DNA from: Paludisphaera rhizosphaerae
GTDB lineage: Bacteria > Planctomycetota > Planctomycetia > Isosphaerales > Isosphaeraceae
Assembly (NCBI RefSeq): GCF_011065895.1
Contig: NZ_JAALCR010000004.1
Coordinates: 124,001 to 188,000 of the forward strand
Reading direction: 5' to 3'
DNA length: 64,000 bases
Position numbers and translations under genes: made by a program. Below the pieces are notes generated by a model. That model was not told the origin of the DNA and did no database searches. It saw only the letters and a program-made list of their open reading frames with translations. Shown piece by piece: positions 21,073-50,281 of this stretch (its first letter is position 1; every line of letters begins with the position of its first letter).

Positions 21073-21422
21073 CGGCGTTCCTCGGGCCGGATGCCTCGTC
21101 GCTGGCTGATTTCGGTTCGGATCGGTTTTCGAGGCTGGTCGGCCGCCGGACTTCGGGGAGAGTATCGGTTCTTTATTCATCACTTAGGCGTGGTTCGAGC
21201 ATAACCGATGCCGAAATCTCCAGATACCCGGATTTTGGTCGCCGGCCGATTGGATTTCCGAAGTACTCGGCCAACCTCCGACCTGAGCCCACTTGGATCT
21301 ACGGTCGTCGGTAGGGCGGTCGACGACGCCACCGTGTGCTGAGATACGAGAGCCGGCTGGCAGAGTGCGGACGACTCGCCGGGCTAGCACCAGGATTAAC
21401 AAGCCCGCCGCCGGGGGGAATC
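21073..21422. other. 350 bases before the exosortase gene
   Basis: This region separates the first two EPS genes from the exosortase block and probably holds divergent promoters for the small membrane protein and the exosortase operon. It is relatively AT-rich around 21180-21270. I see no repeat or recognisable operator. Confidence 0.4.
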
Positions 21423-22376
21423 ATGACGGACGAGCTGAGTGCGAGCGTCGAGCCGGGCCGCCGGCGCGCGATGTTACTTCCAGCCGCGATGCTGGTCTTC
21501 GGGGCGTGGTTCTGGTGGCCTGTCCTATCGGGAATGGCCGCACGCTGGTCGGAGGATCCTCGATATTCGCATGGCTATCTCGTAGCACCATTCGCCTGCT
21601 ACTTGCTCTGGATTCGCCGCGAGCGGCTCGAAGCACCCCCGACCCGGCCAACATCCTGGGGACTGATACCGTTGGCCGCTGGCGTTGCGTCGCAGATCGC
21701 CGGTGCGTACCTCTTCCAACCTTGGCTAGAAGCCGTGGCCATTCTGCCGATCCTCGCGGGCCTCGCTCTGCTGGTCGGCGGCACACGAGTGCTGGATTGG
21801 ACCTGGCCGGCGATCGCTTTCCTTGTCTTTATGATCCCGCTCCCCTATCGGATCGAAGTCGCCCTGGGTGCTCCGCTCCAGGGAGTAGCGACCGAGGCCA
21901 GCACGTATGCGTTGCAGACCCTGGGACAACCGGCCTTTGCTGAAGGGTTCGTCATTCACCTAGGCACCCACCGCATCGGCGTCGTCGAGGCGTGTAACGG
22001 GCTGGGGATGCTCTATATGTTCCTCGGGTTCGCCACGGGGGCGGCGCTGCTGCTGGCGCGACCGACCGTGGACCGGGTTTTGATCCTGCTCAGCGCCGCA
22101 CCAATCGCCTTGGCGGCCAACGTGATTCGAATCACGGTCACCGGCCTGCTGCACCAGGTGGCCGGGAGTCGTTGGGCGGAATACTTCTACCACGACTTCG
22201 CCGGCTGGTTGATGATGCCGCTGGCCCTGCTGATGCTGCGGGCCGAGGTTGCTGCTCTCGACCACTTATTCACGCCCATCGAACCCGTGAGTTCTCACGT
22301 CGATCCCCGGATCGTCCTCATTCGAAACGGGGGCGACTCGCGTCGAGTCCCAGCTCCGGGACCTGGGCGAGCCTGA
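21423..22376 (+). CDS. Exosortase
   Basis: The 317-residue polytopic membrane protein carries the exosortase catalytic triad in order: Cys191 in VVEACNGLGMLYMF, Arg236 in ANVIRITVTG and His257 in YFYHDFAGW. The conserved N-terminal segment WSEDPRYSHGYLVAP (about 42-56) and IPLPYRIE are also present. Exosortases are transpeptidase-like enzymes that cut the PEP-CTERM tail of exported proteins and attach them to the envelope. The start is the ATG at 21423 with GGGGGGA upstream, giving a better N-terminus than 21336. An EpsI gene lies two genes downstream and a PEP-CTERM protein is at 57080. Confidence 0.93.
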   Translation: MTDELSASVEPGRRRAMLLPAAMLVFGAWFWWPVLSGMAARWSEDPRYSHGYLVAPFACYLLWIRRERLEAPPTRPTSWGLIPLAAGVASQIAGAYLFQPWLEAVAILPILAGLALLVGGTRVLDWTWPAIAFLVFMIPLPYRIEVALGAPLQGVATEASTYALQTLGQPAFAEGFVIHLGTHRIGVVEACNGLGMLYMFLGFATGAALLLARPTVDRVLILLSAAPIALAANVIRITVTGLLHQVAGSRWAEYFYHDFAGWLMMPLALLMLRAEVAALDHLFTPIEPVSSHVDPRIVLIRNGGDSRRVPAPGPGRA

Positions 22377-37352: not shown

Positions 37353-38440
37353 AAGTCATCGTCGTTGCTGGCACGCGGCCGAATTTCATGAAAGTGGCGC
37401 CGTTGATGTGGGAATTGGCCCGACGGCCCGCCGTTGAGCCCTTCTTGATCCACACCGGCCAGCACTACGACCAGCGGATGTCGCGCCTCTTCTTCGAGGA
37501 ACTGAACATCCCGAGTCCCGACGTCGACCTCGGCGTTGGCTCGGGCACGCATGCGAGCCAGACGGCCGAGGTTCTGAAGCGGATCGAGCCGGTCCTGGTC
37601 GACTGGAAGCCCGACGTCGTTATGGTCGTCGGAGACGTCAACTCGACGCTCGCCGCCGCGCTGGCGGCGGTCAAGCTGGGCATACCGGTGGCCCACGTCG
37701 AAGCCGGGTTGCGCAGCTTCGACCGAACGATGCCCGAGGAGATCAACCGAATTCTGACTGATGCGATCAGCCGCTTCCTCTTCGTCTCGGAACGTAGCGG
37801 AGTCGAGAACTTGCGTCGGGAGGGGATATCAGGCGAGCAGGTCGTTCTGGTCGGCAACGTGATGATCGATACCCTGCTGGCCTGCCGCCGCCGCAGCGAG
37901 GGGTCGCCGATCCTGGCCGACCTGGGCCTGTCGAGCCGCCCCTATGCCGTCCTGACGCTCCACCGGCCGGCCAATGTCGAGAATCCGAACGTCTTCCGCG
38001 GGCTCATGGAGGCCATCGAGAGGCTCGGCCAGGCGCTGCCGATCGTCTTTCCGGTCCATCCGAGGACCCGAGCCGTCCTGGACGGCACTCGAGCCACGTC
38101 GAACCACAACCTGATCCTGACCGAACCGCTGGGCTATCTCGACTTCATGAAGCTCCTTGCGAACGCTCGATTAGTGCTGACCGACTCGGGTGGAATTCAA
38201 GAAGAGACGACGGTGCTCGGCGTCGCGTGTGTCACGCTGAGAGAGAACACCGAGCGACCAGTGACCGTCGAACAGGGCACCAATGTCTTGGCCGGGCTCG
38301 AGCCCAAGCGGATTGTCGCCGCGGGATTGGACGCCCTGGAGCGGCCGCTTCGCCAGGAACGCATCCCCGAACTATGGGACGGACAGGCAGCCGGGCGCAT
38401 CGTCGACGTCCTGACGGCGGACTCGGCCCATGTTCTTTGA
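37349..38440 (+). CDS. wecB: UDP-N-acetylglucosamine 2-epimerase (non-hydrolysing)
   Basis: The 363-residue protein matches WecB/MnaA: AGTRPNFMKVAPLM (about 6-19), HTGQHYDQRMS, GDVNSTLAAALAA (about 91-103), HVEAGLRSFDRTMPEEINR (about 112-130) and VHPRTR. The late motif TDSGGIQEE (about 278-286) is also present. It interconverts UDP-GlcNAc and UDP-ManNAc. The start at 37349 overlaps the previous stop; the longer frame from 37169 is not credible. Together with the dehydrogenase at 55242 it can make UDP-ManNAcA. Confidence 0.94.
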   Translation: MKVIVVAGTRPNFMKVAPLMWELARRPAVEPFLIHTGQHYDQRMSRLFFEELNIPSPDVDLGVGSGTHASQTAEVLKRIEPVLVDWKPDVVMVVGDVNSTLAAALAAVKLGIPVAHVEAGLRSFDRTMPEEINRILTDAISRFLFVSERSGVENLRREGISGEQVVLVGNVMIDTLLACRRRSEGSPILADLGLSSRPYAVLTLHRPANVENPNVFRGLMEAIERLGQALPIVFPVHPRTRAVLDGTRATSNHNLILTEPLGYLDFMKLLANARLVLTDSGGIQEETTVLGVACVTLRENTERPVTVEQGTNVLAGLEPKRIVAAGLDALERPLRQERIPELWDGQAAGRIVDVLTADSAHVL

Positions 38441-39476
38441 GCGTCAGGCGGGGCTGGAGTCGAAGAGGTGGAGGTTGGTCATCCGGGCGTTATCCTGGGC
38501 CTGCCGGGGCTACCTCGTGGCGACGCTTGGATTATGGCTCGTCGTGGCGACGCTTGGCGACCGCTGGTGGCCGGCGACCCTGTTCCTCTATGGCCCTCGC
38601 TGGCTCTGGGCCCTGCCGCTGGCGGCCCTCGTCCCCGCAGCGGTCGTCGCGCGGCGGTGGGGCCTGCTCTGGCAATTGGGAAGCGCCGCGGTCGTTGTCG
38701 CCGTTCCGGTGATGGGCCTCTGCATCCCGTGGCGGTTCTGGCTTGATCGCAGGCCGTCGCAGTTCGCGGTACGGGTGCTCTCGCTGAACACTCAGGGCGG
38801 AGGGGTCGATACCGATCGTCTGGCCGCCCTGATAGGCGACACAACGCCGGACGTGGTTGCCCTCCAGGAGCAGACCGGATTCCCGGAGGCCGGCCGCGAT
38901 TGGAGGACCGACTGGCACGTTTCCACGAGCGACGGGCTTTGCGTGGGAAGTCGTTACCCGATCGAGTCGCCCAAACAGATGGCGAACGTCGTCCCGGGGG
39001 TCGACGGGGCTGTCACCAGGGTCGACCTGGTCACGCCCGCCGGCCGTGTTGCTTTCTACAATCTCCATTTGGAGACGCCGCGAGAGGGACTGGCGGCCGT
39101 GGTAAATCGGCGACTCGGAGCCCTCGCCGGCGTCCCGGAACTCGACGAAGTCACAGCCCAGCGCCACGCCGAATCGCGGGTCATGAGCGATTGGATAGCG
39201 CCATCCGACGGCGGGGCGGTGCTGCTGGCCGGCGACTTCAACATGCCCGGCGAGAGCGTCATCTTCAGGCGGCTCTGGTCGCGATACACGGACGCCTTTT
39301 TGGCCGCCGGCCTGGGATTCGGCCACACGAAATTTACTCGCTGGTTCGGTGTGCGGATCGATCACATCCTGGCCGGGCCGGGCTGGAGAGTCCGCCGCTG
39401 CTGGGTCGGCCCCGACGTAGGATCGGACCACAGGCCCTTGATCGCGGATATCGACTGGGTCGGAGGCGTCGAGTGA
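38430..39476 (+). CDS. Membrane-anchored endonuclease/exonuclease/phosphatase-fold protein
   Basis: The 348-residue protein has three hydrophobic helices at the start (residues about 18-95). A DNase-I-like EEP domain follows with VRVLSLNTQGG (about 113-123), PDVVALQEQ (catalytic Glu), NLHLETPREG, LAGDFNMP (about 270-277) and the terminal GSDHRPLIADI with the catalytic His. In this fold the substrate may be DNA, a phosphoinositide-like lipid or another phosphodiester. The membrane anchor and location suggest a lipid- or sugar-phosphate ester rather than DNA; this is an inference. It overlaps the wecB-like gene by 11 bases. Confidence 0.82.
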   Translation: MFFERQAGLESKRWRLVIRALSWACRGYLVATLGLWLVVATLGDRWWPATLFLYGPRWLWALPLAALVPAAVVARRWGLLWQLGSAAVVVAVPVMGLCIPWRFWLDRRPSQFAVRVLSLNTQGGGVDTDRLAALIGDTTPDVVALQEQTGFPEAGRDWRTDWHVSTSDGLCVGSRYPIESPKQMANVVPGVDGAVTRVDLVTPAGRVAFYNLHLETPREGLAAVVNRRLGALAGVPELDEVTAQRHAESRVMSDWIAPSDGGAVLLAGDFNMPGESVIFRRLWSRYTDAFLAAGLGFGHTKFTRWFGVRIDHILAGPGWRVRRCWVGPDVGSDHRPLIADIDWVGGVE

Positions 39477-39493: not shown

Positions 39494-40252
39494 ATGGTGA
39501 GCGTGTATCGGTTCGTCGCCATGTCGGGGCACCCCGCGGCGCGGGCGGCCCGGTCGATCCGCCAGCGGGTGCTTGACTTCACCTTGCCCGCCCCGCGACC
39601 CCTCGTGCTCCCAATAGTCTGGACCTTCCTGGCGCTTCGTGCCGCCTACTACTTCGCCGTGAGAGTGTTCGTCTGCGAGCCCTTTTTCAAGGCTTCCTGT
39701 CGTCGATGCGGCCGAGGAGTGCGGACGGGGGTTTATATCCACTGGATCCAGGGGCCAGGTCAGATCATCGTCGGGGACGGCGTTCTGGTCGACGGGAAGT
39801 GCGCTTTCAGCTTCGCTGCGCGTTATTGCGAGAGTCCCACTCTGGAGATCGGCGATCTGACGGAGATCGGGCACGGTTGCAGGTTCACGGTCGGGAAACG
39901 GATCACCATCGGACGCCGCTGTCACCTGTCATCCAGCGTCTGGATGTTCGACTCAAGCGGCCATCCCTCTGACGCCGGCCGCCGCGCGGCCGGGTTGCCG
40001 GCGGACGACGCGGACGTGCGACCGATCACGCTCGGCAACGACGTCTGGATCGGCAGCTGCGCAATGATCCATCCCGGAGTAAGCCTGGGTGACGGATGTG
40101 TCGTCTCGGCCGGGTCGGTCGTCCTGACCGACGTACCGCCGAACACCATCGTCGCAGGGAATCCGGCGAGGCAGATCGTTTCCCTGCCGCGGGCCGTGGT
40201 CTCCAGGCCCGAGGCGGCCGCTAACGGTCGGCTCGGCGTCGCCCGCACATGA
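39494..40252 (+). CDS. Left-handed β-helix O-acyltransferase
   Basis: The 252-residue protein has a hydrophobic N-terminal region (about residues 38-60) and then hexapeptide repeats: GQIIVGDGVLVDG, TLEIGDLTEIGHG, NDVWIGSCAMIHPGVSLGDG and the closing SVVLTDVPPNTIVAGNPARQI (about 210-230). This is the LbH acetyltransferase fold, with the usual NP-A ending. It would O-acetylate an EPS sugar. The ATG at 39494 has GGAGGAG upstream. It is followed after 46 bases by the carrier-protein gene. Confidence 0.85.
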   Translation: MVSVYRFVAMSGHPAARAARSIRQRVLDFTLPAPRPLVLPIVWTFLALRAAYYFAVRVFVCEPFFKASCRRCGRGVRTGVYIHWIQGPGQIIVGDGVLVDGKCAFSFAARYCESPTLEIGDLTEIGHGCRFTVGKRITIGRRCHLSSSVWMFDSSGHPSDAGRRAAGLPADDADVRPITLGNDVWIGSCAMIHPGVSLGDGCVVSAGSVVLTDVPPNTIVAGNPARQIVSLPRAVVSRPEAAANGRLGVART

Positions 40253-40298: not shown

Positions 40299-40544
40299 GT
40301 GCCGATGGCCACTGCGCTGGACGAGATCACCGCGACGCTTCTCCGGGTCGGAAAGCTTGAGAGCATCGGCCTTGAGGAGGACATCTATGAAGCCGGATTC
40401 CCGTCGATCCAGGCTCTCGAACTGCTCCTGGAGTTGGAGTCGGCCTGCGGCGTGAGCATCCCGGACGACCAGTTCATGAAAGCGAGGACGGCGCGTGCCC
40501 TGCTCGGGTTGGTCGTCGGCCTCCAGCAGGAGCAGGCCGCATGA
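40299..40544 (+). CDS. Stand-alone acyl/peptidyl carrier protein
   Basis: An 81-residue acidic helical protein with a carrier-protein helix II: the predicted phosphopantetheine serine is Ser36 in YEAGFPSIQALELLLELE. The usual DSL triplet is replaced by PSI, as is common in carriers that serve amino acid:[carrier protein] ligases rather than fatty-acid synthases. It starts at a GTG (40299; GAGGAGGAG upstream) or at the ATG six bases later. The stop overlaps the ATG of the ligase gene, so both proteins are made together. It would hold an aminoacyl thioester. Confidence 0.85.
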   Translation: MPMATALDEITATLLRVGKLESIGLEEDIYEAGFPSIQALELLLELESACGVSIPDDQFMKARTARALLGLVVGLQQEQAA

Positions 40545-41716
40545 CGACCAAGATTCGTGCCGCAATCCGACTGGCGACGCCCGCACATGAGATGGCTCAG
40601 GAGGAGATCCTTAAGCAGGTCGCCTATCTATCCAAGGAGATCGCCGACCCGTGTTTCGATCCGGGCGGGACGATGCTGGAGTTCGACGCCCCGACTGATT
40701 CGGCGGACGCGTTGGGGCGCGGCGTCGAAGAATTGGCCCGGCGCGTGCAACGGGGCCTTCGCGGCCTCCAACGCCGCGTCGCCTATCGGAGTTCAGCGGC
40801 TGAACGCCCGACCTTCCTGGGCGACGGTGAAGTACCGGGGCTCCATCGACTCGGTCCCGGACAGGTCGCTTTGGAAGGGCTGACGCTTCAGCTTTTCCGC
40901 TACTTCGACCGCGTCTTCGAGGAGTTCGGGCGGGCCTGGGACGCGCGGCCGGTCCTGACCCCGACCCTGATCCCAACCGGGGCGTTGGCCAAGTGCGACT
41001 ACTTCCGGTCGTTCCCGAATGTCGTCACCTTCGCCTGCCACCTGCCCGAAGACCCGGCTCGCGTCGAGGACTTCCGGGCCCGGCACTACGATCGCCAGGA
41101 TCTCGACGATCGGGCCCTGGCCGACCTGGAGACCCCCGAGGCGTGCCTCTCACCGGCCGTCTGCTACCACGTCTACCACCTGAACTCCGGGCGAGTCGTC
41201 CCGTCCGGAGGCTTGACCTACGGGGTCAGCGGGAAGTGCTTCCGGTACGAGTCCAGCAACCTGTCCGACCTCCGCCGGCTCTGGGATTTCACGATGCGAG
41301 AGGTCGTCTTCCTCGGTGGACGGGAGCAGGTCCTGGCGCTACGCGAGCAGTCGATTGAGCGGATGGGTCGGTTCCTGGAGGAGCATCGATTGGCCGGCGA
41401 GATCCGCACAGCGAGCGACCCCTTCTTCATCGCTCCGGAGGCGGTCGCCAAGGCCTACTTTCAACTCAGTTCGGAAACGAAGTTCGAGATCTCCTTGATG
41501 CTCCCCGACGACGCTCGCCTGGCCGTTGGGTCGCACAACTACCACACCGACTTCTTCGGCCGGGCGTTCGACGTGAGACTCGACGACGGCGGGCTGATGC
41601 ACAGCGTCTGCGTCGCCTTCGGCCTGGAACGCTGGGTGCACGCATTTCTGACGCAACACGGTGTCGACGCCAGACGCTGGCCCGAGGTCGTCCGCTCCGC
41701 TCGCGAGTTCCAATAA
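40541..41716 (+). CDS. Amino acid:[carrier protein] ligase (class II aaRS-like)
   Basis: The 391-residue protein resembles the truncated seryl-tRNA-synthetase homologues that load amino acids on carrier proteins. It shows a motif 2-like GKCFRYES (231-238) and a motif 3-like CVAFGLERW (357-365). There is no N-terminal tRNA-binding coiled coil. Cys152 (ALAKCDYF), Glu237 and Cys357 are placed like the zinc ligands of atypical archaeal SerRS, though I cannot verify the alignment. The family activates glycine, alanine or a similar amino acid with ATP and transfers it to phosphopantetheine. The upstream, overlapping carrier-protein gene supports this role. Confidence 0.8.
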   Translation: MTTKIRAAIRLATPAHEMAQEEILKQVAYLSKEIADPCFDPGGTMLEFDAPTDSADALGRGVEELARRVQRGLRGLQRRVAYRSSAAERPTFLGDGEVPGLHRLGPGQVALEGLTLQLFRYFDRVFEEFGRAWDARPVLTPTLIPTGALAKCDYFRSFPNVVTFACHLPEDPARVEDFRARHYDRQDLDDRALADLETPEACLSPAVCYHVYHLNSGRVVPSGGLTYGVSGKCFRYESSNLSDLRRLWDFTMREVVFLGGREQVLALREQSIERMGRFLEEHRLAGEIRTASDPFFIAPEAVAKAYFQLSSETKFEISLMLPDDARLAVGSHNYHTDFFGRAFDVRLDDGGLMHSVCVAFGLERWVHAFLTQHGVDARRWPEVVRSAREFQ

Positions 41717-41793
41717 CCCTGTGCGGAGGTCGTTCATCGGACGGTCCGATGGGCGACTCGTTCGCACGCCCGACAGCGAATGCGAGGGAAAGC

Positions 41794-42465
41794 ATGGTCG
41801 GGACTATGCGATCCGCGTACTGGACGGCCCGACGGACCCTGGGCTTGACCCCCATGCGTCGGACGCTTGCCGAATTGGAACGGCGAGGGGTCGTCGTGAA
41901 GGATTTGGTCACACTGGAAGCCTTCGGGGGCACGGGCGACAACCACATCCTCGATTACGCCGCCCGGGTGGCCTCCCTGGAAATCTGGGAGATCGACCCC
42001 GCGTGCGAGCCCATCCTCCGGCGCAAGGCGCCGACAGCCAAGATCCTCATCACCGACTCGATCGCCCAACTCCATCGGACTCAATCCCGATACGACTTCA
42101 TCATCTTCGACAATCCCATGGCCGACTATAACGACCACAAGTATTGCGAGCACTTCGACCTGTTCCCCGGCGTGTTCGAAGTTGCGGCCGACGAGGCCGT
42201 CCTGGCCTTGAGCGTGGTGACGAGGCCCACGCCACTGTCCCGGAGGCGAGCGCCGCACCTCTTCAATGAGGTCCACCTGCGGCGTCGACGGGAATTCTAC
42301 GGCACTTCGACCCCGGATGACGTCGGCTTTGACGAAATGGCCCGAACTTACCACCGGCTCGCGGAGGCGGCCGGCTTTCATGTCGACTGGTGGTTCGGCC
42401 TCGAGCGGTCGATCGCCCATTTCATAGTCATGAAGATTCGGCGGTCCTGCGCCGCCGTCGAGTGA
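41794..42465 (+). CDS. SAM-dependent methyltransferase-like protein
   Basis: The product of about 223 residues has a Rossmann SAM-binding pattern: LEAFGGTGDNHILDYA (about 42-57), the acidic EIWEIDP (about 63-69) and DFIIFDNPMADYND (about 99-112), resembling spermidine-synthase-like methyltransferases. The start at 41794 is preceded by GAGGG; the ATG at 41749 has no ribosome-binding site. It lies between the amino acid:carrier ligase and the dioxygenase, so it could methylate a carrier-bound amino acid, or the final ester or amide. The substrate is an inference; the fold assignment is fairly sure. Confidence 0.7.
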   Translation: MVGTMRSAYWTARRTLGLTPMRRTLAELERRGVVVKDLVTLEAFGGTGDNHILDYAARVASLEIWEIDPACEPILRRKAPTAKILITDSIAQLHRTQSRYDFIIFDNPMADYNDHKYCEHFDLFPGVFEVAADEAVLALSVVTRPTPLSRRRAPHLFNEVHLRRRREFYGTSTPDDVGFDEMARTYHRLAEAAGFHVDWWFGLERSIAHFIVMKIRRSCAAVE

Positions 42466-42542
42466 GCCGAGGCGGCCGTCGGCTCGCACTCCCCTCGCTT
42501 CGCCACGTCTCCTCCCCTCTCCTGCGCGCACCGAGGACTCGC

Positions 42543-43385
42543 ATGATGACCATCGACCAGCAGCTTCAATATGAGAACCAGGGGTTCCTTCACCTCCCCG
42601 GAGTGATCCCACCCGGATTGGTGAGCCGCCTGCGCAGCGCCTTCGACGTCGCCGCGGGCCGCGAGCGAGGAAGGAATGGGCTGGGCTTCTTCGACATCCC
42701 GAACATCCTCGACGTCGACGACTGCTTCGTCGACCTTGTGGACCTGCCGACCGTCATTCCGATCCTTCTGGAAGCCGTCGGTCCAGACATCCAGCTCAAC
42801 CACACGCACGCCCGAGTCTTTCCTCCGGGCAAGACGTTCACTGCGGCCTGGCACAGCGATCTGGTCGACGTCCTTGGGATCGATCTGGCCAACAGCCTGC
42901 ATTTCTTTGTCAAGGTGCACTTCTACTTCGAGGATCTGCGGCCCGACCAGGGATGCCTCGCATTCCTGCCGGGCACCCACCGCCTGCCGGTGGATTTTCC
43001 CCGGCCGCAGATCAAGGATATCGACCGATCACCGGCGGTGGTGAAGATCGTCCCCAGGGCGGGAGACGCCGTCCTGTTCAACACGCACCTCTTGCACATG
43101 GCCCTCGACAATGACAGCCACCTGGACCGGAAGTCGCTGATCTACGCCTACTCGCATTTCTGGCTCAAGAATTACGCCAACGCGGTCCCCTCCGACCTCG
43201 ACAGGTTGGCGACGACCCGGCTCCGCCGGCAACTCTTTGGGATCGAGGAGGAGGGCGTTTCCTACTTCGACCAGCGGGTCGATAAGAACGCCGAGGAACG
43301 ACACGCCTACAGCTCGCTCCGCGCGGCGAGCCGCCGCCTCATCCACCGGTTCCGCAAAAGCTCGTCCATCACGTCACTGCGCTAA
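42543..43385 (+). CDS. Phytanoyl-CoA dioxygenase (PhyH) family Fe(II)/2-oxoglutarate oxygenase
   Basis: The 280-residue protein has the PhyH iron-binding facial triad: His104-Ser-Asp106 in AAWHSDLVD and distal His185 in NTHLLHMALDN, with Arg196 (HLDRKSL) to bind 2-oxoglutarate. The early EYENQGF-like segment (YENQGFLHLPGVI, about 10-22) is family-typical. Because the Asp is present, hydroxylation is expected rather than halogenation, which needs Ala or Gly there. The family includes enzymes that modify carrier-bound amino acids, which fits the carrier and ligase genes just upstream. It is 77 bases downstream of the methyltransferase-like gene. Confidence 0.86.
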   Translation: MMTIDQQLQYENQGFLHLPGVIPPGLVSRLRSAFDVAAGRERGRNGLGFFDIPNILDVDDCFVDLVDLPTVIPILLEAVGPDIQLNHTHARVFPPGKTFTAAWHSDLVDVLGIDLANSLHFFVKVHFYFEDLRPDQGCLAFLPGTHRLPVDFPRPQIKDIDRSPAVVKIVPRAGDAVLFNTHLLHMALDNDSHLDRKSLIYAYSHFWLKNYANAVPSDLDRLATTRLRRQLFGIEEEGVSYFDQRVDKNAEERHAYSSLRAASRRLIHRFRKSSSITSLR

Positions 43386-43415: not shown

Positions 43416-44765
43416 ATGACAGATCGTCAGCGCTGCTGGTGTCTCGGGAGCCTTCTAGCCTTGGGGCTGGCCTTGCGAGTCGGGCTGGCCGCATCCCTGG
43501 GGCTGAGCGCTGCCCCCGAGCCGGGCACGGACCAGCAGGAATACGACACCTATGCCTGGAGCGTCGCCCAGGGCCGGGGCTACCGCGGCATGAGCGCCGA
43601 TGTCGCGGATCGGGACCACTTGACGGCTTTCCGGCCTCCCGGAACGTCCCTGGCCTGGGCGGCGATTTACGGGGTCGTCGGGCATCGCTATGACGCGGTT
43701 CGACTGCTTCACTGCCTGGCCTCGGCGCTGACGATCCTCTTGGTGTACGACATCGGCCGACGCGTTTTCTCCCCGAGCGTCGGCCTGCTTGCGGCGGCGG
43801 GCTACGCCATCTATCCGACCGCCCTTCTGTTCTCGACCCAGTTGCTTTCCGAGCCCCTCGGTACGTTCTGGTTTCTCGCTGCCCTGGCCATGTGCCTCAG
43901 ATTCGCCGAATGCCCGGCATGGGACCAGGCCGTCGCCGCGGGAATCCTGCTGGGCGTCGCGATCCTGACGCGTCCCCATGCGGCGTTAATGGCGCCCCTA
44001 ATCGGGTTCTGGGTTCTGTGGCAGTTCCGTCAGGACAGGCGGGCGTGGGTCGAGGGCCTGCTGATCCCCGTCGCTTGCCTGGCGACGATGAGCCCCTGGA
44101 TCGTCCGCAATTATCTCATCTTCGGAGCCTTCATTCCGATCTCGACTCTGAGCGGTTCTGGCCTGCTGCAGGGCAACAATAGAATCGTCGCCACCGACCC
44201 AAGATACTACGGGTATTCCATCTGGGATTCGTATATCCCCGAGTACCGACAGGCCCTGCAGACCGCTGGCGACGAGGTCGAGAGAGATCGTCGTGCGAAG
44301 CGATTGGCGTTGCAGTGGCTCCGCGACAATCCCGACCGATGGTGGTATTTAGCACGCGCCAAGACCGTCCGGGCCTGGACCCCATTCCTCCAATCGAGCA
44401 CGCCGAGATACCAGCGAATCAGCATGCTCTTATCATGGGGCCCTGTGCTGATCTTGTTCGTCCTGGCCTTCCTGCCCACCCTGGTCGGTCTCCTCCGGGG
44501 GGGGCGGCCTGGTTGGCTGCTCCATCTAGTGATCGTCAACAACGTAGTCTTGAATCTGATCTTCTGGGGCGAGGCGCGATACCGGCACTCGATTGAGCCG
44601 ATCTGTTTGATTTTCGCCGCCCAGGCTCTCGCTTACCTGATGGCATCAGAACGGCGCGCCCTCGACGGACGAAGGTCCAAGGGCGCTGAGAACCGGCCTG
44701 CCGACCCCTGGGCGACTCCTACCCTAGCCTTTGATGGCGGTTTGCAGGAGATCCGCACGCCATGA
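43416..44765 (+). CDS. Membrane glycosyltransferase, GT39/ArnT-like
   Basis: The 449-residue polytopic protein has the GT39-type N-terminal first loop with acidic residues (TDQQEYDTYAWSVAQGRGY, about 38-56), RPPGTSLAWAA and a series of eight to ten membrane helices. A C-terminal soluble part of about 30 residues follows. Such enzymes use polyprenyl-phosphate sugars on the periplasmic side to modify lipids, proteins or polymer. The stop overlaps the next gene by four bases. Confidence 0.82.
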   Translation: MTDRQRCWCLGSLLALGLALRVGLAASLGLSAAPEPGTDQQEYDTYAWSVAQGRGYRGMSADVADRDHLTAFRPPGTSLAWAAIYGVVGHRYDAVRLLHCLASALTILLVYDIGRRVFSPSVGLLAAAGYAIYPTALLFSTQLLSEPLGTFWFLAALAMCLRFAECPAWDQAVAAGILLGVAILTRPHAALMAPLIGFWVLWQFRQDRRAWVEGLLIPVACLATMSPWIVRNYLIFGAFIPISTLSGSGLLQGNNRIVATDPRYYGYSIWDSYIPEYRQALQTAGDEVERDRRAKRLALQWLRDNPDRWWYLARAKTVRAWTPFLQSSTPRYQRISMLLSWGPVLILFVLAFLPTLVGLLRGGRPGWLLHLVIVNNVVLNLIFWGEARYRHSIEPICLIFAAQALAYLMASERRALDGRRSKGAENRPADPWATPTLAFDGGLQEIRTP

Positions 44766-49144: not shown

Positions 49145-50281
49145 ATGGCGAAATCGTCGAGCCGCATGACGCAACTGGACGGCCTGCGAGGCCTCGCCGC
49201 GCTCGCCGTTGTCTTCACTCACAATGGCAACCCGGCGTTGGCCTGGGCGCTCGATTTAGGGGCCGTCGGCGTCAAGCTCTTCTTCGTGCTGAGCGGATTC
49301 CTGATCACGGGCATCCTGTTGGAAGCCAGGAGGAAGGCTGATCCGGAGGGCCTGGGTTGTCGCGGGGTTCTCCTCGCTTTCTACGCGCGGCGATTCCTGA
49401 GGATCTTTCCGCTCTATTATCTAGTTTTACTTGCCTGCGCCATGGTCGATATGCCGGGCGTCAGGGCCAATCTCCCCTGGCACGTCGCCTATCTGACCAA
49501 TTTCCATATTGGACGTGACGGCGACTGGGGGTTGTCTCTGAGCCATTTCTGGACACTAGCGGTCGAGGAGCAATTCTACCTGCTATGGCCTACGATCGTC
49601 CTATTCGTCCCGGCTCGTTGGTTGTCGACCATCGTCGTTTCGATAATCCTGATCGGCCCCCTGAGCCGAGCTTGCCTCGCAGTCGCCACGACGAACCTGG
49701 TCACGAGCATGACCGCCACTACATCCTGTCTCGATTCACTCGGTTTGGGCGCTCTGCTCGCGATGCGGAACGCGAGCGGGCGACGGCCTAATCTGGTGTT
49801 TCTTCGCGGGCTGCTCTGGGCCGGGCTAATCATCTCCGGCACCGTCGCTGCGGTGCGGTTCTCCGGCGTCGGCCGTTCCCACGGGACAGGCTGGGTGATC
49901 ATCCTGACCCTGAAAGATCTCGGCTATTCGCTTGTCTTCGCCTGGCTCGTGAGCCTCGCCGCGGAAGGCTTTACCGGCGTCTCCGGACTCCTTCTCGCAT
50001 GGCGGCCGCTCGTCTACACGGGGACGATCAGCTACGGGATTTACGTCTATCACGAGATACTGCCCTACTTGTGGCATTCGCGAACCTGGACCTTGCCGGG
50101 CGATGGGGCAAGCAGGTTTCTAATCGTCATGGCCGCAACCTATCTCGTGGCGGCTCTCTCGTGGGCTCTTTACGAGCGACCCCTGAACAACCTGAAGGAT
50201 AGATTCCCCTACTTCGGACCAGCCGGGAGAGGCCGCGACCCCCGCGTCTCGCCCCTACAGCCATGCGAATCCTCGTCTTGA
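49145..50281 (+). CDS. Acyltransferase 3 family membrane protein (OafA-like)
   Basis: The 378-residue protein shows the acyltransferase 3 hallmarks: LDGLRGLAALAVVFTH at about 11-26 (catalytic His), LFFVLSGFLITGILL (about 46-60), FYARRFLRIFPLYYL (about 79-93) and SHFWTLAVEEQFYLLWP (about 138-154). About ten membrane helices follow. It would O-acetylate the polysaccharide at the membrane using cytosolic acetyl-CoA. It starts at an ATG 34 bases after the previous gene and overlaps the next by 19 bases. Confidence 0.92.
   Translation: MAKSSSRMTQLDGLRGLAALAVVFTHNGNPALAWALDLGAVGVKLFFVLSGFLITGILLEARRKADPEGLGCRGVLLAFYARRFLRIFPLYYLVLLACAMVDMPGVRANLPWHVAYLTNFHIGRDGDWGLSLSHFWTLAVEEQFYLLWPTIVLFVPARWLSTIVVSIILIGPLSRACLAVATTNLVTSMTATTSCLDSLGLGALLAMRNASGRRPNLVFLRGLLWAGLIISGTVAAVRFSGVGRSHGTGWVIILTLKDLGYSLVFAWLVSLAAEGFTGVSGLLLAWRPLVYTGTISYGIYVYHEILPYLWHSRTWTLPGDGASRFLIVMAATYLVAALSWALYERPLNNLKDRFPYFGPAGRGRDPRVSPLQPCESSS

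Follow-up and report, generated by a model that had tools for sequence, protein, structure and literature searches.

A predicted amino acid-loading cassette in an exopolysaccharide locus of Paludisphaera rhizosphaerae: a conserved acyltransferase–carrier–ligase unit

Why does an exopolysaccharide (EPS) locus contain a stand-alone carrier protein and an enzyme predicted to charge it with an amino acid? The question is raised by a 64,000-nucleotide stretch of DNA from Paludisphaera rhizosphaerae (contig NZ_JAALCR010000004.1, positions 124,001 to 188,000 of the forward strand; G000:C4:124001-188000; genome size 8.05 Mb), referred to here as the window. Four open reading frames (ORFs), all present, tightly spaced and on the plus strand, encode a stand-alone phosphopantetheine carrier protein (40299..40544, 81 aa), a class II aminoacyl-tRNA synthetase (aaRS)-like amino acid:[carrier protein] ligase (40541..41716, 391 aa), a putative S-adenosylmethionine (SAM)-dependent methyltransferase (MT) of no known family (41749..42465) and a PhyH-type iron/2-oxoglutarate (Fe/2OG) dioxygenase (42543..43385). 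The carrier and ligase genes overlap by 4 bases. The initial annotation of this DNA treated the four genes as one block, in which an amino acid is loaded, hydroxylated by PhyH and perhaps methylated by the MT while on the carrier, and then passed to the polysaccharide. Comparison with other genomes revealed a different unit. We propose, with a probability of roughly 0.52, that a three-gene cassette, made up of the carrier, the ligase and a left-handed beta-helix (LbH) hexapeptide acyltransferase encoded upstream (39494..40252, plus strand, 252 aa), supplies an aminoacyl group and transfers it to a sugar of the surrounding locus's exopolysaccharide.

Scanning genome contigs with the ligase yielded 33 loci, 19 of them close (L020-L038, 57 to 74% identity) and 14 more distant (L039-L052). 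A close set of 21 loci, spanning four phyla, was assembled from L020-L038, the window (W) and genome G024 (L073), after dropping L010, L011 and L012, which are copies of L020, L027 and L032, and L013, a shorter L073. In 21/21 close loci the carrier gene stands directly upstream of the ligase gene, at distances of -10 to 58 bp when starts are chosen by script. Fourteen of the 21 also have a closely related LbH gene in the same orientation, with a gap of -11 to 77 bp to the carrier downstream (W, L020, L021, L022, L023, L024, L029, L030, L031, L032, L036, L037, L038 and L073). Looser arrangements were found in L025 (LbH separated from the carrier downstream by 834 bp), L034 (LbH divergent, 28%, and 41 bp upstream of the carrier), L035 (4.4 kb off, opposite strand), and L026 and L028 (about 15 and 11 kb off, on the same contig to judge from coordinates). 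A GNAT-type acyltransferase gene was present in 15/21 close loci, often directly downstream; a GNAT elsewhere in the window genome that might replace that of the relatives was considered and rejected (best E 0.33). Clustering of neighbouring ORFs was disturbed by antisense ORFs of the high-GC DNA, and profile maps were made afterwards. The conserved unit is LbH acyltransferase–carrier–ligase and not the four-gene block: no MT or PhyH homologue was detected in the flanks of the other 20 close loci, some of which are short contigs, so that this absence applies to the flanking DNA covered. The four-gene unit was rejected on tblastn and profile searches of the fetched loci and on comparison with genomes G009 and G006.

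The two downstream genes were analysed separately. PhyH is predicted to be an intact HxD...H oxygenase, as annotated (PF05721, 4.7e-17; 63.4 bits, cut-off 22), with the HxD (WHSD) and distal histidine read from the sequence; its plausible start is ATG 42543 and not GTG 42390, the start in the mechanically made list of ORFs. The MT ORF is also intact and SAM-fold motifs were read by eye. At the thresholds applied, comparison of its protein with Pfam, NCBIfam, PHROGs and PDB sequences gave no match, a search of viral contigs returned nothing usable, and a single-sequence model was unusable (predicted local distance difference test, pLDDT, 33.5). Neither protein had a tblastn match at 1e-4 in L010-L052, or a profile match in L020-L052 or L073. 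One MT homologue besides itself was found in 198 relatives, in G023, near an LpxB-type gene and on a different contig from the G023 ligase. A PhyH homologue (72%) in G009 lies 23 kb from LbH–carrier–ligase, within a row formed by an endonuclease/exonuclease/phosphatase-family (EEP) gene, PhyH, a PMT-type glycosyltransferase, a GT4 glycosyltransferase and a further glycosyltransferase. The window has EEP (38430..39476, plus strand; PF03372, 3.9e-26), PhyH, PMT (43416..44765, plus strand; PF13231, 5.7e-17), GT4 and the last gene in the same order, with LbH–carrier–ligase–MT between EEP and PhyH and further genes lower down. The co-oriented run in the window extends past the four genes, taking in EEP and LbH upstream and continuing downstream at 43416. 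G006 has PhyH (66%) and lacks the ligase. Because of the G009 order and the ligase-free G006, PhyH appears to belong with the adjacent EPS genes. The MT would be an accessory that is not conserved with the cassette.

These results make modification on the carrier by PhyH and the MT an improbable account of the locus. It draws on the co-orientation and tight spacing of the four genes, on the position of the MT in the slot held by GNAT in many relatives, and on the shared contig of PhyH and ligase in G009; PhyH-type enzymes modify carrier-bound amino acids in non-ribosomal peptide synthetase (NRPS) systems. Against it stand the missing homologues in other ligase loci, the placement of PhyH with EPS genes in G009 and G006, and the separate contigs of the MT homologue and ligase in G023. 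The MT and PhyH could still act with the ligase in this one genome. On G019:C7 (L089:11497-13415) a 45% LbH homologue has a distant PhyH-type gene as its neighbour, with no carrier or ligase nearby, an adjacency that leans towards the annotated pathway.

The identities given to the carrier and the ligase were confirmed by sequence comparison. The carrier matched PF00550 (2.4e-11) and, under its cut-off, NCBIfam PRK07081 (7e-8; 32 of 72 bits); the start was taken as GTG 40299, with ATG 40305 also possible. Ser36, the predicted attachment site, and Gly33 were invariant in 21/21 carriers aligned, and these carriers have G-[FVLI]-x-S in place of the DSL motif, which bears out the annotated stand-alone carrier with a non-DSL helix II. 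Two phosphopantetheinyl transferases in the window genome scored above the Pfam cut-off. The ligase matched the NCBIfam model PRK07080 (NF005479), amino acid--[ACP] ligase, at 1.8e-48 and the Bll0957 chains (3mey) at 1.2e-31. Because it scored 165 bits, compared with a curated equivalog cut-off of 357, the predicted enzyme is a divergent branch of a known ligase kind and not a PRK07080 equivalog. An alignment of the window ligase with those of 29 of the 33 scan loci (leaving out L042, L043, L044 and L049; identities to the window ligase 27 to 74%) showed C208, E254, C357, R235 and R364 to be invariant in 30/30 rows. We take C208, E254 and C357, aligned with Bll0957, to be zinc ligands, while R235 and R364 are presumably the arginines of class II motifs 2 and 3. 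Together with the Bll0957 match, the invariance of these positions upholds the description of a class II aaRS-like ligase. As to the tRNA-binding arm, which the annotation describes as lacking, residues 108-385 align with the core of archaeal-type seryl-tRNA synthetase (216-502 of 518), with the N-terminal 107 residues outside the alignment. The closest ligase by identity was that of G009 (74%), and the closest named record came from an Isosphaeraceae metagenome-assembled genome (MAG).

The LbH protein had been suggested as a candidate transferase for the last step, a suggestion supported here by gene neighbourhoods in four phyla. Hexapeptide repeats and a left-handed helix are both present, as indicated by PF00132 (8.3e-11), by the AlphaFold model (pLDDT 90.3) and by its fold matches. 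By E-value, maltose-type acetyltransferases were the best Foldseek matches. The best template-modelling (TM) score among the 50 matches listed was that of AntD (0.75 of target, about 22% identity), an N-acyltransferase of the nucleotide-sugar dTDP-4-amino-4,6-dideoxyglucose. H157 was invariant (17/17) and falls at the HP motif in an alignment to maltose acetyltransferase; we take it to be catalytic.

Association of LbH with the ligase was also seen at the level of whole genomes. Seventeen ligase genomes were searched (taking in L021-L026, L028-L031, L033-L038 and L047), and 16 had LbH at E<=1e-30, with identities of at least 50% in 14, 42% in G208 and 35% in G214; LbH was not found in G209 at this threshold. 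Among the 198 relatives, 5/5 close-ligase genomes had LbH at E<1e-60, compared with 4/193 others (Fisher 5e-8, with kinship ignored and the threshold chosen afterwards), and in two of those four FkbH and a carrier adjoin. In G019 the LbH that passed this threshold falls outside the main clade and is encoded on another contig than the ligase. A close ligase and a close LbH (both E<=1e-60) each occurred in just one of 396 sampled Acidobacteriota genomes, namely G202, the centre of that sample. A second Fisher test gave 1e-12 for seven ligase-selected genomes (six with LbH) compared with a sample, again with kinship ignored. A tree of LbH proteins contained a clade of 22 (support 88/95), of which 18 have a ligase in the same locus or contig, two stand next to FkbH and a carrier, and two (G006 and G017) have neither loader; outgroup members L064, L065 and L111 were left out of this neighbourhood comparison. 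Distance matrices of ligase and LbH were correlated (Mantel r 0.78, 16 loci), and the two trees agree partly. L033, a MAG labelled Planctomycetota, nests among Bryobacterales ligases, if the binning is correct. The cassette appears patchy and exchanged, and looks like a mobile kit.

The two FkbH-associated members of the clade come from G014 and G031, which belong to one genus and lack the ligase. Each has a same-clade LbH followed by FkbH and a different carrier (L067 and L069). FkbH loads glyceryl and not an amino acid. The position of LbH next to the ligase–carrier pair, or next to FkbH and another carrier, speaks for a carrier as its acyl donor. L020 and L026 have both loaders, ligase and FkbH; no FkbH was found in the window genome. 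We suggest tentatively, at well short of even odds, a general plug-in for glycan acylation, in which one LbH clade would read the carrier while interchangeable loaders, the aaRS-like ligase for amino acids and FkbH for glyceryl, would set the group added. Such a plug-in would make surface-sugar aminoacylation the main physiological role of tRNA-synthetase-like carrier ligases in several phyla. The LbH–FkbH–carrier stretches themselves (L067:3933-6693 and L069:5995-8755) form a candidate glyceroylation cassette for polysaccharide.

A four-step mechanism can be drawn up for the three-gene cassette. A phosphopantetheinyl transferase would arm Ser36 of the carrier, a step that the protein family well supports. 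The ligase, according to its family and conserved active site, would form an aminoacyl adenylate (aminoacyl-AMP) and load the amino acid, presumably glycine or alanine by precedent, onto the carrier thiol. LbH, as gene linkage and fold suggest, would draw its acyl group from the aminoacyl-carrier instead of from acyl-coenzyme A (acyl-CoA); the acceptor would be an amino or hydroxyl group on a sugar that is linked to a nucleotide or a lipid. The modified sugar would then be polymerised and exported by exosortase-type EPS machinery. The GNAT of most relatives, absent from the window, may cap the amino group or serve as an alternative transferase, and the MT and PhyH would be locus-specific extras. 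The EPS setting of the window comprises, by Pfam, an EpsH exosortase (21336-22376, at the start of the EPS locus), Wzz, Bac_transf, Wzy_C, Wzt and glycosyltransferases, and a PF01757 membrane acyltransferase is encoded at 49145, 7.4 kb downstream.

Two bodies of observation weigh against aminoacyl transfer to EPS by LbH. The first concerns LbH and its linkage. In sequence comparisons its closest relatives are maltose/galactoside acetyltransferases that depend on acetyl-CoA, a point against a carrier donor, and EPS loci commonly have LbH acetyltransferases. L027 and L033 have no linked LbH (on another contig only in L027, and only a 42% homologue elsewhere in L033). An LbH match was detected in just one of the 14 distant ligase loci (L039-L052), namely L047, and LbH was missing at 1e-20 from the six relatives whose ligases are distant (E 1e-4 to 1e-26). 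The clade LbH genes of G017 and of G006, the latter on a contig of 4.2 kb, lack a neighbouring carrier, in genomes without ligase or FkbH; the flanking stretch covered around outgroup LbH genes of G019 (two), G073 and G169 likewise contained no carrier. The FkbH–LbH pairing was seen in one genus only. The ligase–LbH Mantel correlation drops to 0.42 (p 0.008) for 12 non-redundant loci, and the ligase–GNAT correlation was not significant after redundancy removal (0.32, p 0.11). The window LbH pairs with that of L031 (Acidobacteriota), the window ligase with that of L020 (Isosphaeraceae).

Several of these points would fit an LbH that is an ordinary acetyl-CoA-dependent O-acetyltransferase of the EPS, with the carrier–ligase pair serving another acceptor or transferase, such as a GNAT, the acyltransferase at 49145 or some other protein. 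The nearest solved relatives of LbH use acetyl-CoA, the PF01757 gene is close by, and GNAT genes are frequent beside close ligases. Because FkbH was seen in one genus and G006 and G017 are loader-free, we place less weight on aminoacyl transfer by LbH, and more on this alternative, than we otherwise would. We nevertheless consider it unlikely, though with an appreciable chance of being right. It leaves aside the immediate adjacency of LbH in 14/21 loci from several phyla and the rarity of LbH without a ligase (0/395 sampled Acidobacteriota and the 4/193 relatives above), and no credible match to the relatives' GNAT turned up in the window genome.

The second body of observation concerns natural products. 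In L027:9746-19657 (a Singulisphaera MAG) the carrier and ligase directly precede a 2813-aa polyketide synthase (PKS) that includes an AMP-ligase domain, and the 21 kb covered contain no LbH; this pair possibly supplies an amino acid for a polyketide. The ligase of L051 lies near an NRPS gene and a major facilitator superfamily (MFS) exporter. These contexts indicate that ligase relatives also serve natural products. As a further alternative, the pair in the window might produce a siderophore or a small peptide-like metabolite and lie among EPS genes only incidentally. Other contigs of the window genome do encode PP-binding domains, in frames of 2181 and 2906 aa. We regard this as very improbable: no PKS or NRPS domain, the carrier itself excepted, was detected in 20 window proteins scanned with Pfam, and flippase or glycosyltransferase genes lie near the cassette in L020, L026, L032 and L038.

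The distant ligase loci had further arrangements. L047, from a Polyangium MAG (ligase 38%), has the order carrier–ligase–LbH. Eight Anaerolineae loci (L040-L046 and L052; ligase 37 to 44%) contain carrier, ligase, GNAT and aminoglycoside-NAT-like genes, together with a gene cluster identified by Pfam as NeuB in L044, the sole locus annotated. The stretch L044:6032-13741 is a nonulosonate locus (NeuB, cytidylyltransferase), with similar stretches in L040-L043, L045, L046 and L052. These loci are candidates for N-aminoacyl nonulosonic acids. Actinobacterial ligase relatives were found in L051:3839-10729 and L048 (Umezawaea, Streptomyces).

If aminoacyl transfer by the LbH–carrier–ligase cassette is correct, this family of tRNA-synthetase-like enzymes would gain a function, and tRNA-synthetase-type catalysis would have been reused for amino-acid-bearing bacterial coats. 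The cassette points to a concrete transferase, to EPS or nonulosonate sugars as acceptor class, and to named strains, for example Sorangium cellulosum. A 2022 review gives the role of these ligases as unknown (PMC9437257). A note in proof had in 2010 predicted sugar aminoacylation by this ligase family; there the transferase was Atu2574, named along with a redox enzyme of Rossmann fold (PMC2922099). In the literature searched, which was incomplete, that prediction alone turned up and no tested aminoacyl-carrier/LbH glycan system was found; the portions of PMC6594144 and PMC12419801 available contain nothing on such a system. Our results extend the 2010 prediction by the link to LbH in a conserved cassette, by FkbH beside the same LbH clade, and by the NeuB/nonulosonate setting of distant relatives.

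How does the cassette compare with known systems? The Bll0957/PRK07080-type ligases of Bradyrhizobium and Agrobacterium share with the window ligase a homologous catalytic core, the zinc-ligand and class II motif positions and an adjacent carrier; the window ligase differs in length (391 aa compared with a 318-position model) and in falling under the equivalog cut-off. AntD shares the LbH fold, with the best TM score among the matches listed, but its entries hold CoA or hydroxybutyryl-CoA and not a carrier, and its identity to the window LbH is low, as given above. VioB and LpxA/LpxD are related LbH sugar N-acyltransferases. The FkbH–carrier loaders of G014 and G031 resemble the ligase–carrier pair in charging a carrier beside the same LbH clade. 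Two other systems are built from different proteins: in AlmE-AlmF-AlmG of Vibrio cholerae, AlmE is of the adenylation (A)-domain type and AlmG is not known to be an LbH protein, and DltA-DltC with DltB/DltD use an unrelated adenylating enzyme and a membrane transferase. As described in PMC12930378, AlmEFG places glycine onto lipid A by the same logic of activation, carrier and transferase, delivering an amino acid to a surface glycolipid, a likeness of logic for which homology is not claimed; the Dlt system likewise uses a carrier-borne aminoacyl donor for a cell-surface polymer, in the D-alanylation of teichoic acid. Compared with the 2010 prediction (PMC2922099), in which Atu2574 is the transferase, the gene linked here is an LbH acyltransferase. 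N-linked alanine, glycine, serine and threonine on amino sugars are known, E. coli O161 has a D-alanyl legionaminic acid, and an N-glyceroyl amino sugar is also cited (PMC10609480); such sugars are the kind of product that the model proposed here would predict.

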